Source: Leptospiraceae bacterium (GTDB lineage: Bacteria > Spirochaetota > Leptospiria > Leptospirales > Leptospiraceae). From it: DNA of 64,000 nt. The notes under the pieces were generated by a model. The model was not told the origin of the DNA. It searched no databases and saw only the letters and a program-made list of their open reading frames with translations. The stretch lies in assembly GCA_017996175.1 (NCBI GenBank), contig JAGOHK010000001.1:1-64000 (forward strand), written 5' to 3'. Below, in pieces: positions 25,619-31,465 of the stretch. The position numbers were made by a program, and so were the translations under genes. How positions within the stretch are numbered: the stretch's first letter is position 1; every line of letters begins with the position of its first letter.

Positions 25619-26380
25619 ATGATTAAATGGAAGTTGATGCTAACAAGTGTTCCTTATATGTTGGGAGTCATTGCTATCAATTATGTAATTAGTAATATAC
25701 TTGGATTTGAAGGGATCATTGAATTCGCAGATGTAGGACTTGTTTTGACTGGAGGAATTTTCCTCGTTGGTTTTATGCTTGCAGGTACAATGTCGGATTT
25801 CAAAGAAAGTGAAAAACTTCCAGCCGAACTCGCTTGTACGCTCGAAGCCATCGAGGAGACAATCGCGACAGTCGGAATTAGCAAACAAACTCTGGATGTA
25901 AAAAAAATGCGAGCCTCTTTGTTTGAAATCACGACTGATATTTCCAATTGGTTTTATAAAAAAATTTCTTACGACCAAATGTTTGCCTCTCTTACCAAGT
26001 TGCAGACTTCGATTTTTCAAATGGAAGAAGCGGGAGCCACAAGTTACGCGACTAGAATGCTCGGAGAACTAAACACACTTCGAAAAATAATTACTCGTAT
26101 AGGTGTAATTTCCAGAACTGACTTTCTTGCTACCGGTTACGCTTTGCTTGAATCGTTAATCTTTTGTATTATTGTATTACTTTTGATTTCTAAATTCAAA
26201 ACGGTTTTAGCCGAATACATACTTATCGCATTTGTAACTTTGATTTATGTCTATATGTATCGTTTAATCCAAGACATCGACGACCCATTTGAATATTCCG
26301 AATCTGGTGAGCCCGGTGCTGCCGAAGTTCCTCTTTTTCCATTTGAAGAATACAAAGAGAGGGCGAAGAGTCGTTTGTAA
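25619..26380 (+). CDS. Membrane protein, possibly DUF4239/bestrophin-like
   Basis: A 253-residue protein with two membrane helices near the N-terminus (about 8-28 and 38-58) and two near the C-terminus (about 180-200 and 205-223), with about 110 residues of soluble helical sequence between. This layout recalls bestrophin-like DUF4239 channels, but no signature residues were confirmed. The ATG was chosen over a GTG 6 bases upstream because GAGG lies 6 bases before the ATG. It starts a same-strand series that runs to 31465, with a palindrome between it and the next gene. Confidence 0.6.
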   Translation: MIKWKLMLTSVPYMLGVIAINYVISNILGFEGIIEFADVGLVLTGGIFLVGFMLAGTMSDFKESEKLPAELACTLEAIEETIATVGISKQTLDVKKMRASLFEITTDISNWFYKKISYDQMFASLTKLQTSIFQMEEAGATSYATRMLGELNTLRKIITRIGVISRTDFLATGYALLESLIFCIIVLLLISKFKTVLAEYILIAFVTLIYVYMYRLIQDIDDPFEYSESGEPGAAEVPLFPFEEYKERAKSRL

Positions 26381-26385
26381 ATCTC

Positions 26386-26435
26386 GTAGGGGTTGAATAT
26401 ATTCAATGCATAGGTTGAATATATTCAACCCCTAC
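26386..26435. repeat. Perfect 21-bp palindrome with nested palindromes
   Basis: Arms 26386-26406 and 26415-26435 are exact reverse complements around the loop TGCATAGG. Each arm starts GTAGGGG and contains TTGAATATATTCAA, itself a perfect palindrome. A short T-rich stretch (CTTTTAG) follows, so it may also act as a terminator. The ends resemble those of the element at 8860-8917. Confidence 0.85.
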
Positions 26436-26506: not shown

Positions 26507-27709
26507 ATGGAGAAATCCCTAACGTACGATAAATCAATTAATTTCGTAAGAAGTAATTCCCACACTCCTTATTGGTACGAATCTGTAAAAAACTTCGATA
26601 ACGGTGAATACAAAACTTCGTTCTTCAATTTGTTGCGTTATGTGAATAGCACGATTGTAATTCCTGATGAATCCAAAGAAGTGGTAGAACTAAATTTGCC
26701 GCACGGGTCAATCATTGTAAATATCAAAGTTGATTCTAAAGGTTATGAAATTACTGCTCCTTTTCTAAAAGTTCCAGAAGGGGCTAATGGACTCGGAATG
26801 ATGAGACAAATTTCCGAATTGAATTTTTCTTACTTAGTCCTTGGACAGATTGTTCTCAAAGGAAATGAATTTTATTTAGAGTATCGAGACGCTTTAGAAA
26901 ATTGTGAGCCTTATAAAATTTATTCCATACTCGAAGAAATTTGTTTTTGTGCGGATTACTACGATGATGTGTTCATTGATAAATTTAAAACCGAGTCCGT
27001 AAAAAAGCCAGACCTTGAAGTATTTACTCCCGAAGAAAAAGAAATTGCTTATAAAAAATTCAACGAGATTATCAAGGAAGGAATTTCGTTTATAGATTAT
27101 TTTGAATCAAAACGTTTTTACGGACTTGCTTGTGATACTTTAGAAACTACTTTTTTAAAAATTGACTATGTAATTGCACCACAAGGAATTCTCGGCGCCA
27201 AAATGAGCGAGTATAAAAGTTTGCTCTATGCGAATGACGCATTACAAACAGTAGTCGCAAATACAAAAGCCAAACTCCAAGAACTTTTAACTTACGACAA
27301 ACAGAAATTTGACTCATCTTTATTTCATCCCAAGTTTTTGATTCCCATAAAAAAAAGAGGAGAACTTCCATATATCCAAGAATTTATGCGCAAAACTCAC
27401 GAAACAATGACAGCTTCTTTTGGGAATAAATCTTATATGGATGTTACAATCAGTGGACTTTTTCTCATCTATGATTTATTTTATAAAAATGCAATTCCAA
27501 ATGAAGTAACCGCTCATCTAGAAGTTGCTTTGGAGAAGGCGGGTGGGCAAGATTGGAAAACAAGTGCAGAGGTTTTATACAATTCAATTAGTAAAATCAT
27601 GAGCCTAAATCCAGAAGATGAAACTGCCACAGAAAAGCTAACAGGCGATAGCTCCCTAGGAAGTATGAAGTCCATCTTTGGGAAAATTACTGGTCTATTC
27701 AAAAAATAA
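26507..27709 (+). CDS. YbjN/T3SS-chaperone-like domain protein
   Basis: A 400-residue soluble protein. Residues 25-160 look like the YbjN/CesT chaperone-like fold: 'VELNLPHGSIIVNIKV', then 'YEITAPFLKVPEG', 'LNFSYLVLGQIVLKGNEFYLEYRDAL' and 'ILEEICFCADYYDDVFIDKF'. Residues 180-370 are all-helical and unknown. The last 20 residues (MKSIFGKITGLFKK) are amphipathic and could touch a membrane. It is followed after 15 bases by a protease that ends in a similar YbjN-like domain, so the two probably work together. No signal peptide. Confidence 0.6.
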   Translation: MEKSLTYDKSINFVRSNSHTPYWYESVKNFDNGEYKTSFFNLLRYVNSTIVIPDESKEVVELNLPHGSIIVNIKVDSKGYEITAPFLKVPEGANGLGMMRQISELNFSYLVLGQIVLKGNEFYLEYRDALENCEPYKIYSILEEICFCADYYDDVFIDKFKTESVKKPDLEVFTPEEKEIAYKKFNEIIKEGISFIDYFESKRFYGLACDTLETTFLKIDYVIAPQGILGAKMSEYKSLLYANDALQTVVANTKAKLQELLTYDKQKFDSSLFHPKFLIPIKKRGELPYIQEFMRKTHETMTASFGNKSYMDVTISGLFLIYDLFYKNAIPNEVTAHLEVALEKAGGQDWKTSAEVLYNSISKIMSLNPEDETATEKLTGDSSLGSMKSIFGKITGLFKK

Positions 27710-27724
27710 TTTGGAGAATTAATT

Positions 27725-28807
27725 ATGAGCGATATAGAAAAAATTACACCTGCCATTTTTAAAATCAATACAGCCAGTGGAAGTGGAACTGGGTTTTATG
27801 TTCAAGATTACGATTTAGTAATTACAAACTACCATGTAGTAAGTGGGTTTAAGAAAGTTGCTCTAGAAATGCAGGATAAAAATACTCTCGCTGCGGACGT
27901 AATGGTGATTAACCCCTTAATTGATATAGCTTTATTAAAACCAGAAAAAACTTTAAGCGGACTACCGGGAGTTAGTTTCCAAAAACAAGATTCTATCAAA
28001 AACCGAGACAAAGTTTCCGTTTTAGGATTTCCGTTTGGGATGCCATTTACTATTACAGAGGGAATTATTTCCTCCGCCAAACAGCTATTAAACGGTCAAA
28101 CCTATATCCAAACAGATGCAGCAGTCAACCCAGGTAATAGCGGCGGACCTGTTGTGAATATGAATGGGGAGATCATTGGAGTTACAACAAGTAAATTCAC
28201 ACAAGCGGATAATATGGGATTTGCCCTACCAATAGATCATGTGATCGAAGAACTCGAGGCATACAAACTCAACCCAAATATTGCCTACGCTGTAAAATGT
28301 CCTTCTTGTAATTTTTCCTTGCATGAACCAATGGAAAATTGTGCAAATTGCGGAGCTGTATTAAAAAAGGAATTATTCAACGAACAACCTAAAACAGAAA
28401 TGGCAGTTTTTGTAGAGGAAGTTTTTAATGAGTTAAAAATTGATCCTGTGATTGCAAGACGTGGAGTTGATTTCTGGGAATTTCATCGCGGCAGTGCGCT
28501 TATTCGTTATTTTGTGTATCGAAATAGTTTTCTATTTGCAACTAGCCCTCTTGCCAAATTACCTAAAACAAATTTACAAGAAGTATATAAATATGTTCTG
28601 AGTAATCCAGTTGCTCCTTTTTACCTTGGTATAAGTCAGGGGCTAATCTATATTTCCTACCGTGCTCATTTGGCAGATTTAAAATCATCTAAACGTTCTA
28701 TCATCCAAAAAAATCTAGCTGAATTAGCAATCAAAGCAGATGAGTTAGATAATTTTCTAATCGAAAAGTATGGTTGTGAGTGGCATGAGGATTCGAAGAA
28801 GGAATAA
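27725..28807 (+). CDS. Trypsin-like serine protease with zinc ribbon and YbjN-like domain
   Basis: A 360-residue protein. Residues 5-185 are a trypsin-like (S1C/HtrA-type) protease with an intact triad: His37 (TNYHVV), Asp67 (LIDIALL) and Ser139 (PGNSGGP). No PDZ domain follows. Instead residues 192-209 form a zinc ribbon (CPSC and CANC), and residues 220-355 resemble the YbjN/chaperone-like fold (NLQEVYKYVLSN, LIYISYRAHLADL). No signal peptide or membrane helix is visible, so it should be cytoplasmic, unlike DegP/HtrA. It lies between the 400-residue YbjN-like gene and an ankyrin gene in one apparent operon. Confidence 0.8.
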   Translation: MSDIEKITPAIFKINTASGSGTGFYVQDYDLVITNYHVVSGFKKVALEMQDKNTLAADVMVINPLIDIALLKPEKTLSGLPGVSFQKQDSIKNRDKVSVLGFPFGMPFTITEGIISSAKQLLNGQTYIQTDAAVNPGNSGGPVVNMNGEIIGVTTSKFTQADNMGFALPIDHVIEELEAYKLNPNIAYAVKCPSCNFSLHEPMENCANCGAVLKKELFNEQPKTEMAVFVEEVFNELKIDPVIARRGVDFWEFHRGSALIRYFVYRNSFLFATSPLAKLPKTNLQEVYKYVLSNPVAPFYLGISQGLIYISYRAHLADLKSSKRSIIQKNLAELAIKADELDNFLIEKYGCEWHEDSKKE

Positions 28808-28816
28808 TTTGTAATT

Positions 28817-29188
28817 ATGAATTGGCTAAAATCATTTTTCCCCTCGAATCGTGAATCGAAAATTTATCCATCCGATTTACACTATGCTTGCGGAGAAGAC
28901 GGAAGTATTGAACAATTAAAAAAACTTCTAGAATCAAAACCAAACTTAGAGGTAAAAGATGCGCAAGGAAAAACCGCACTGCATTGGGCAATTGATTATG
29001 GGAGACTCGATTGTTTTGAACTCCTATTACAAAGCGGTGCGAATCCAAACGCTCAGGACGAAGATGGAGTTACTTGTCTCAACATATCTCTATCGTCTAA
29101 CGGTCTTTCTGAATTTTCAGATGCCCTCAAACGATTCAACGTAGACCCGACCATTAAAGATAAACACGGTAAACTTTATTTGATGTAA
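28817..29188 (+). CDS. Ankyrin-repeat protein
   Basis: A 123-residue protein with about three ankyrin repeats (residues 20-115): 'DLHYACGEDGSIEQLKKLLE', 'KTALHWAIDYGRLDCFELLL' and 'VTCLNISLSSNGLSEFSDAL'. Ankyrin proteins bind other proteins; no enzymatic part is present. It starts 9 bases after the protease stop and ends 4 bases before the next gene, so it probably belongs to the protease unit. Confidence 0.8.
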   Translation: MNWLKSFFPSNRESKIYPSDLHYACGEDGSIEQLKKLLESKPNLEVKDAQGKTALHWAIDYGRLDCFELLLQSGANPNAQDEDGVTCLNISLSSNGLSEFSDALKRFNVDPTIKDKHGKLYLM

Positions 29189-29192
29189 TTCT

Positions 29193-30254
29193 ATGGAAAA
29201 AAAGTTCCTATTTGCCGCTGTTAATTTATTGCTGGTATTTTTTTTCGAGTCCTGCTTTACTACTTCGGTATATACTCTGGATTATAATGGGCGGAGGAAA
29301 CAAGCTGCTAATAATTCGTATATGAATTCAAGTATTCGTGAGATACAGGCTATTTGGCGCACGAAAGAATTTGTCATTATCCGCTCTACTTTTGGTGTTT
29401 ATTCTGTATCAAATTTTAAAGATAATGAAAAAATCTTTGAAGAAATTTGTGTTCCTTTAGAATTGATTCAGACCTACAGACAAATTAACTTTACACAAAA
29501 TAAAAAACTCTGTAATGTCTCGAATGAGGAAAAAATTCCTGTTGACTTTATGGAAATAACTGAGTTAAAAAATGCATTATGGTTTCAAGAGTTGAATTTA
29601 GCGGTTTATCTTGAAAACCCATTTAGTTCCAATGATAGCCCTTTTTCACCAGTGAATCTTTTTTTTTCAAATGTAGATTTTGCCAAAAGTAAAATAAAGC
29701 TAAAACAATTTCTTAAAAATGAAAAGATAACATCTGTTTACCGCACAACTGATAAAAATGTTCAGTATATCTGGATTGTATTTGATTCCAATAAAGCGCT
29801 ACAATTTTATAAAAGTTACGAAGGTTATAAGATTGTTCAACATGATAGTAAACTACAGTGGACTGATTTAGAAATTTTAAATCGAATTCCTGAAAATGAA
29901 AAAATACAACTTCGCTTTCAGGAAATTCCTTCTTTAGAAAATAAATTTTATCTAGGATTTATTTCGGAAGAATTTTATTCTTGGACCATTCGAAAATCTA
30001 GTCGCGTTTTTGAATTGAAACTAAATAATGTAAAAATACAAAAAGGTTTGATTTTAACCGCAAACCCTACCACAGTAAAAAAAGAAAGTGGGTTTAGCTG
30101 GACTTTCTATCCAATTTTATATCCAGTTTCTATTGGACTAGATATTGCGACTTCTCCATTGCAGTTTTTGTCGATAATGATTTTAGGGTTTTATGAACAT
30201 CTATGGCTGGGGAATTGTATTTTAAAAGTCAGTTGTAAAACCCCATTAGGGTAA
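29193..30254 (+). CDS. Putative lipoprotein, unknown function
   Basis: A 353-residue protein with a signal segment (about 5-20) and a possible lipobox FFESC (Cys21, a loose match of the leptospiral kind). A hydrophobic stretch near the C-terminus (about 305-335, PILYPVSIGLDIATSPLQFL) is like the end of short lipoproteins with a 'P-x-DxxxxP' segment. No family recognised. It begins 4 bases after the ankyrin gene. Confidence 0.6.
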   Translation: MEKKFLFAAVNLLLVFFFESCFTTSVYTLDYNGRRKQAANNSYMNSSIREIQAIWRTKEFVIIRSTFGVYSVSNFKDNEKIFEEICVPLELIQTYRQINFTQNKKLCNVSNEEKIPVDFMEITELKNALWFQELNLAVYLENPFSSNDSPFSPVNLFFSNVDFAKSKIKLKQFLKNEKITSVYRTTDKNVQYIWIVFDSNKALQFYKSYEGYKIVQHDSKLQWTDLEILNRIPENEKIQLRFQEIPSLENKFYLGFISEEFYSWTIRKSSRVFELKLNNVKIQKGLILTANPTTVKKESGFSWTFYPILYPVSIGLDIATSPLQFLSIMILGFYEHLWLGNCILKVSCKTPLG

Positions 30255-30280
30255 ATTAGTATTATCCCAAGGAATAAAAT

Positions 30281-31465
30281 ATGAATCTGTTAAAACTTAG
30301 TTTTCTGATTTCACTTATGACGTTTTCTCTTTCGGCACAATCCTCAGACTCCGAAAAAATTTACCAGTCAATACTAAAAGCAACTTTTACACAAGATAAA
30401 ATTGAAGTTGCAAAACCATTACTAAAAAAGAACGAATGTAAAGAAGGGATTTACACATATAAATTACTGAAAGATTCAAACTATTGGAATCAAGAAGCTG
30501 GAATTTTTCTAGCGGGTGAATGCAGAAACCCCAAACTAGATAAAGCAATTTGCGAACTTTTTATAGAAGATCATATGATCAGAAGTCCTGTTAGGGAACT
30601 AGTTAAGAAAGAACCAAGTAGATTTTCTAAAATACTCATTTCCCTTTATAAGACTGAAATGTGGGAGCCAACTAAAAAAGAATTGTTTCAACTTTATGAA
30701 TTTTCACAGGATGAGGATACTACTAATTTTCTGCAAGGTTTGATAAAGAACCCAAAGTCAAAAGATAGAGTTATTGCATTTGAAACTCTGTTGAAACATA
30801 AAAGAGCGACTAATGACTATTTTGTGCGCTCTTTCTTGAAAGATAAAGAACTCAGAAAATATTCCTTACAATGGCTAGCAGAATCGGGAAAGGAAACAGA
30901 TTTAGGAGTATTCCAAGAAATTTTAGCTAATCCCAAATCCGATTTAGAAGAGCTTGCTTCTGCTTGTATCGCTACAAAAAAATGGGGCGATACAAAAGAA
31001 AAAAAATCTACCTATCTTAGATTTTTAAGAGAGGATACTCAAAGTTTGCTCCCAGTTGTATTTTCAATATTTAGCGGAATTATAGACGAAGAAATTTTTA
31101 AAGAAATAAGTAGACTGAGTAGAGCAGGAAAAAACCAGCCGATTCGAACAGAAGCGGTTCTTCAATTGAAAAATTATTCAGGATCAAAAAAATATCCCTA
31201 CATAATTTTATTTTTACAAGAAGAATACCAATCCCAAACACAACATCAGTCAGGTGACACTCTCGCAAATCTGTTCACCCTTGGAATTTATGGAGCATTT
31301 AAAGGTTTGCAAGAAACATATACACGCGATAAATTCTATGAAGTGCAATCTGGTTTAATTCAATTTCTACAAAAAGAAACGGGCGAAAATTTCAAAACCC
31401 CTACCGAATGGAAAGTATGGGCTAATCAAAAGAAACTTCTTCCTATTACGATTACTTATGAATAA
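30281..31465 (+). CDS. HEAT-like repeat protein (intact paralogue)
   Basis: A 394-residue exported protein with a signal peptide (about 1-19) and helical HEAT-like repeats. It is a paralogue of the split gene at 40447-41657: both share F-x-K-x-L-x-DK-x-LR-x-x-SL, then GK-x-x-D-x-x-x-FQ-x-I, a SRAGKNQ/SKKGQSQ segment, a Gly-rich 'LG-x-x-x-x-x-KGL' segment, and an ending LQKETGENF...W-x-x-WA. Likely periplasmic; role unknown. Confidence 0.7.
   Translation: MNLLKLSFLISLMTFSLSAQSSDSEKIYQSILKATFTQDKIEVAKPLLKKNECKEGIYTYKLLKDSNYWNQEAGIFLAGECRNPKLDKAICELFIEDHMIRSPVRELVKKEPSRFSKILISLYKTEMWEPTKKELFQLYEFSQDEDTTNFLQGLIKNPKSKDRVIAFETLLKHKRATNDYFVRSFLKDKELRKYSLQWLAESGKETDLGVFQEILANPKSDLEELASACIATKKWGDTKEKKSTYLRFLREDTQSLLPVVFSIFSGIIDEEIFKEISRLSRAGKNQPIRTEAVLQLKNYSGSKKYPYIILFLQEEYQSQTQHQSGDTLANLFTLGIYGAFKGLQETYTRDKFYEVQSGLIQFLQKETGENFKTPTEWKVWANQKKLLPITITYE

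Follow-up and report, generated by a model that had tools for sequence, protein, structure and literature searches.

A PDZ-less, putatively cytoplasmic HtrA-type protease and its upstream partner carry a common TY-Chap domain in Leptospiraceae and Bacteroidota

Introduction

Regulated proteolysis in the bacterial cytoplasm is attributed chiefly to ATP-driven machines, and the HtrA proteases are regarded as envelope enzymes with PDZ domains. We analysed a stretch of 64,000 nucleotides from a Leptospiraceae bacterium (positions 1 to 64,000 of contig JAGOHK010000001.1, assembly GCA_017996175.1; hereafter the window), which encodes an HtrA-type protease directly preceded by a second gene, whose product we call the partner. 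The protease has the fold, the catalytic triad and the GNSGG motif in common with the HtrA/Deg enzymes (DegP, DegQ, DegS, HtrA2), but it has no PDZ domain, signal or membrane segment, and carries instead a zinc ribbon, a TY-Chap domain and an apparently obligate partner.

The TY-Chap superfamily (PF22551, PF10722) takes in YbjN, AmyR, DR1245 and the T3SS chaperones, to which the domains in the window are related by topology, by a profile match to 2plg and by structural matches. Those proteins are small and stand alone, whereas here the domain is fused either to a ribbon and a protease or to a helical domain. The conserved gene dyads of the phage-shock systems (CesT/Tir-PspA) likewise include a TY-Chap-type domain, but the partner there is PspA and no protease is involved (PMC11237479). 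TY-Chap1-3 were defined in ADP-ribose-linked conflict systems (PMC9503650); these proteins belong to the same superfamily, but their gene context differs and the accessible part of that paper does not mention trypsin. The nuclease-protease pairs of Hachiman, AVAST and Lamassu (PMC12799240) consist of a trypsin-like protease and an upstream partner gene, as in the window, but their partner is a metallo-beta-lactamase-type nuclease rather than a TY-Chap protein with a helical domain, and the pair in the window is neither fused to a defence gene nor located inside an anti-phage system. We found no published description of the partner-protease pair in the open-access literature, seen in part, in line with the original prediction that no named system has this make-up; its novelty is accordingly provisional.

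The protease

The following features were assigned to the protease, all on the + strand.

27725..28807, +: protease gene, 360 aa; trypsin domain of HtrA type followed by zinc ribbon and TY-Chap domain; lacks signal peptide and PDZ
27746..28273, +: trypsin/HtrA domain, residues 8-183; Pfam Trypsin_2 4.5e-28, Foldseek matches to DegQ/DegP/DegS down to 1e-18
27833-27835 (His37), 27923-27925 (Asp67) and 28139-28141 (Ser139), +: catalytic triad codons, from the alignment
28298..28351, +: zinc ribbon, C192-x2-C195...C206-x2-C209, from Cys conservation
28397..28771, +: TY-Chap domain, residues 225-349, from predicted topology and a YbjN 2plg profile match

NCBI models also placed the protein in the HtrA/Deg group. 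In an alignment of 25 diverse homologues, His37, Asp67, Ser139, the oxyanion Gly137 and the four ribbon cysteines were invariant, and all four cysteines were kept in 97 of the 97 protease homologues that carry a TY-Chap domain. The N-terminus (MSDIEKITPAIF) contained no hydrophobic segment and no signal peptide, and the export signal or membrane anchor typical of the HtrA/Deg family was lacking. No PDZ match was found in the window protease or among the families listed for the 25 homologues. As a control, we inspected the three other HtrA paralogues of the same genome, all of which have a hydrophobic N-terminus and a PDZ domain. The AlphaFold2 model, made from a small alignment, had a pLDDT of 90, and a Foldseek search with the whole protease gave, among the matches listed, only HtrA-type proteins, all aligned to the protease domain. 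The triad, the ribbon and the lack of both signal peptide and PDZ had been noted from the DNA letters beforehand, and were borne out. These features support a cytoplasmic, PDZ-less HtrA-type enzyme that is predicted to cleave.

The partner and the domain common to both proteins

The partner gene precedes that of the protease.

26507..27709, +: partner gene, 400 aa; N-terminal TY-Chap domain, helical domain, disordered linker, aromatic tail
26564..26986, +: TY-Chap domain, residues 20-160; Foldseek, hhalign, and Pfam TY-Chap1 in homologues
27029..27601, +: helical domain, residues 175-365; matches no known relative
27653..27706, +: disordered C-terminal tail ending KSIFGKITGLFKK; pLDDT <50, motif statistics

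Neither Pfam, NCBIfam nor PADLOC assigned a family to the window partner, a PDB sequence search with the partner sequence alone as query gave no match, and a fold search against viral proteins retrieved nothing meaningful. Its AlphaFold2 model (small alignment) had a mean pLDDT of 83. When this model was compared with the PDB by Foldseek, residues 20-160 resembled SpcU, SycE, CesT, SycH, YbjN, 6vu7 and 2plg, with probabilities of up to 1.0 and weak E-values (best 0.09). Pfam TY-Chap1 was matched by 9 of 26 partner homologues (best 2e-6); the TY-Chap models are reached through homologues and profiles, and the two window proteins alone give no match.

Profile comparison linked the N-terminal domain of the partner to the C-terminal domain of the protease with an hhalign probability of 98% (P 2e-13), while four control pairings all stayed below 1%. 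The profile of this C-terminal domain of the protease also retrieved partner domains, and it matched the YbjN structure 2plg with an E-value of 2.7e-7. The order of predicted secondary structures in residues 225-349 of the protease is alpha-beta3-alpha-beta2-alpha, and the partner model has the same topology (AlphaFold2 model, Foldseek). This is the topology given for DR1245, YbjN and T3SS chaperones (PMC3575483). Both domains also contain an HGS...V motif and, in the last helix, an AD..DD.....F motif. The profile comparison, the topology and the structure and profile matches thus indicate that the YbjN-like fold originally called in the protease and its neighbour was right, and they answer the HHpred-type comparison with YbjN/CesT proposed at that time. 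The additional helical part of the neighbour was also confirmed.

Gene pairing and co-occurrence

Relatives of the protease turned up at eleven loci in genome contigs. The partner is directly upstream in 10 of them (Leptospiraceae, Alistipes, Aquimarina, Sphingobacteriales and other Bacteroidota), the remaining one (L017) being an ordinary HtrA-domain match. The partner was also found directly upstream, on the same strand, of 72 of the 97 protease homologues, which come from Bacteroidota and from the window's own phylum. The neighbourhood search suggested earlier for Leptospiraceae and Bacteroidota thus found the partner-protease order to be widely kept. The gap between the two genes is mostly -4 to +30 bp in linked copies. 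The remaining homologues lie apart from the partner or at contig ends. One Bernardetia megaplasmid carries the protease with no adjacent partner.

To count co-occurrence, we searched separately with a partner profile and a protease-domain profile. Among 396 Bacteroidota genomes, 14 had the partner, 14 the protease domain and 14 both, leaving out four weak partner matches and one stand-alone domain. In the 198 genomes related to that of the window, the corresponding numbers were 10, 10 and 10, the other matches being mostly small stand-alone YbjN-like proteins. Finally, 199 genomes of one Bacteroidota order yielded 69, 69 and 68, leaving out one weak stand-alone match. The hypergeometric values are extreme, for a statistic that ignores shared ancestry. 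Since many of the unlinked cases sit on different contigs, the association exceeds shared position. On these counts, the interpretation that the two genes form an obligate pair holds.

The homologues fall into two subfamilies with different sequences and a common architecture: subfamily I comprises the window and its own-phylum relatives together with Alistipes and others, and subfamily II takes in many members of one Bacteroidota order. Partner and protease distances correlated with r 0.91 over 24 pairs and 0.73 within subfamily I (P 0.0001). A domain-resolved mirror-tree gave a signal of 0.40 between the partner N-terminal and protease C-terminal domains over all pairs, which was not specific within either subfamily. 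In the protease tree most own-phylum members grouped together (eight rows, support 90), with one own-phylum locus (L056) outside the group; this grouping suggests largely vertical descent. Within one Bacteroidota order, about a third of the species sampled have the pair, which is also present in gut Alistipes.

Proposed mechanism

The retention of the pair across dozens of distantly related bacteria points to a two-protein intracellular machine. The reading that we prefer, and for which we regard the case as evenly balanced, is a chaperone-guided cytoplasmic protease, in which an obligate complex of the two proteins would hold a client between its TY-Chap domains for the HtrA domain to cut. 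We infer that the two TY-Chap domains pair physically, as a heterodimer or a higher assembly, and that together they would grip an extended client segment in the way T3SS chaperones grip effectors. The held client would then be presented to the tethered HtrA-type domain and cut in the cytoplasm without ATP. The TY-Chap domain would take the place of the PDZ domain and targeting elements found in ordinary HtrA proteases. Specificity or location, e.g. docking to the membrane, may come from two elements of the partner, namely the helical domain and the aromatic amphipathic tail with its flexible linker. If true, a conserved ATP-free cytoplasmic HtrA enzyme, using a secretion-chaperone fold for recognition and an obligate partner of that same fold, would represent a different solution.

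The aromatic tail

Partners of subfamily I end in a disordered linker followed by a short aromatic basic C-terminal motif (e.g. KKGFFSKLFG), of which the window partner terminus (KSIFGKITGLFKK) is a relaxed form. Subfamily II partners start with a similar motif (e.g. MGFFDDLFNR), and no partner carries it at both ends. The strict C-terminal motif was present in 18 of 37 subfamily I partners, against 1.9% of control ORF C-termini, and the N-terminal one in 23 of 43 subfamily II partners, against controls of 16% in the same 44-residue window and 9% in the first 18 residues; these counts describe the tail rather than test it, because the motif was chosen after the sequences had been seen. That the tail is a membrane dock or a tethered ligand is a guess in both cases.

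The flexible linker leading to a conserved tail also fits another explanation, namely that the partner is a regulated substrate, which becomes active once the protease has removed its tail or helical domain, as in the Hachiman and AVAST pairs of pro-nuclease and protease. The gene layout, in which the partner precedes a trypsin-like protease as it does in PMC12799240, is in keeping with this. We nevertheless consider this explanation unlikely, since the tail is at opposite ends in subfamilies I and II, since no metallo-beta-lactamase or nuclease signature was found in the partner by Pfam/NCBIfam-type family searches or by the fold search, and since the partner is kept beside pseudo-proteases and protease-less TY-Chap proteins, as described below.

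Pseudo-proteases and protease-less loci

The active site was intact in 72 of 73 linked copies, including that of the window, and was broken in nine homologues (L114, L115, L195, L200, L201, L203, L204, L207 and L209). Three of these have Gly in place of Ser139, five lack the oxyanion Gly, and one, a second copy, reads Leu-Asp-Thr. All nine keep every ribbon cysteine. Eight of them do not lie next to the partner, although their genomes still encode it. The losses trace to 2-3 origins, and the association between being unlinked and having lost catalysis (Fisher P 2e-5) is one of cases that are not independent, because almost all of them are in one clade. Furthermore, in three loci the partner is directly followed by a protein of 136-142 aa that consists of the TY-Chap domain alone and is too short to include a protease.

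L198:4458-4886, directly after the partner: protease-less TY-Chap gene
L208:4460-4888, directly after the partner: protease-less TY-Chap gene
L215:4430-4840, directly after the partner: protease-less TY-Chap gene

A full-length protease of this type is missing elsewhere in two of these three genomes, whereas the third also contains two complete pairs. Pseudo-proteases and protease-less loci show that proteolysis is not a universal requirement and that the TY-Chap pair can persist without the protease. They also argue against a partner that exists solely as a cleavage target or an inhibitor.

An assembly or holdase chaperone, in which the TY-Chap pair does the work, with the trypsin domain serving mostly as a structural element or as an optional clean-up device, would account for the nine broken active sites, eight of them with a partner elsewhere in the genome, and for the three loci in which a protease-less TY-Chap protein follows the partner. 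It would also agree with the pairing of other TY-Chap/CesT proteins with PspA in proposed assembly roles (PMC11237479). We find this explanation rather doubtful because the triad, the oxyanion Gly and the loops show strict conservation in the vast majority of homologues, the window protease included, and because the losses are limited to so few origins.

Because the protease is broken or absent in some lineages, the TY-Chap pair looks like the core of the system, and the protease like an attached effector. This leads to a modified form of the chaperone-guided protease, possible but held only tentatively, in which the core is a client-clasping cytoplasmic TY-Chap pair, the HtrA domain is an optional ATP-independent cutter, and the tail targets or gates. 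If true, this would add to cytoplasmic proteostasis a class of machine distinct from both AAA+ proteases and envelope HtrAs. Since some lineages lack catalysis or the protease and keep the pair, natural variants can separate the chaperone function from that of the protease.

Genomic context

Two other genes close to the pair had been proposed to belong with it.

25619..26380, +: membrane protein, 253 aa; weak bestrophin-like match (Pfam 1.9e-4, below cut-off), outside the conserved module
28817..29188, +: ankyrin-repeat protein, 123 aa; adjacent, outside the conserved module

The original prediction described three tightly spaced genes, and the open reading frames and gaps (15 bp between partner and protease, 9 bp between protease and ankyrin gene) agree with this. 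Tight spacing continues downstream, however, with genes at 29193-30254 (after 4 bp) and 30281-31465 (after a further 26 bp), and it therefore does not by itself define a three-gene unit. The products of 29193-31465 are a lipoprotein-like protein and a secreted protein that may contain repeats. A larger module, with the ankyrin protein as adaptor and the membrane protein as a further member, would be in keeping with the tight spacing in the window. We give it hardly any credence, since spacing of this kind runs on into further genes and neither extra gene accompanies the pair outside two close relatives. The ankyrin gene is downstream of the pair only in the window, L007 and L008, being absent from the same-genus G001/L048 and from every Bacteroidota locus, and the membrane protein accompanies the pair in the window and L007 alone. 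Neither proposal was upheld.

Around the pair lie mostly unrelated housekeeping genes, which vary by genome (e.g. MutS, Tex, DnaN, NfeD, glutamate synthase). The idea of a defence island was rejected after 107 neighbours had been examined and had shown no pattern, with only a few PADLOC matches among them. The patchy distribution of the pair and the known presence of trypsin-like proteases in several defence systems, seen here as generic PADLOC matches, could still suggest an anti-phage defence module. This is very unlikely in view of the neighbours, of the failure to find the partner in phage records, plasmid records or viral contigs, and of the presence of the pair in 4 of 4 genomes of the window's genus. 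No PspA was found as a neighbour of the pair among the families listed (one of the lists giving the commonest 25 of 112).

Some minor observations were made at individual loci. A candidate PspA-like coiled-coil gene (L115:7230-8164) adjoins an unlinked pseudo-protease, and in one Alistipes genome a REase-ARP-type PD-(D/E)XK nuclease (L014:7510-8394) lies upstream of the pair. In the window itself, an inverted repeat (TAGGGGTTGAATATATTCAA, 26387-26434) is located upstream of the partner gene; it has 12 copies in the genome (7 forward, 5 reverse), and is thus dispersed as well as terminator-like.
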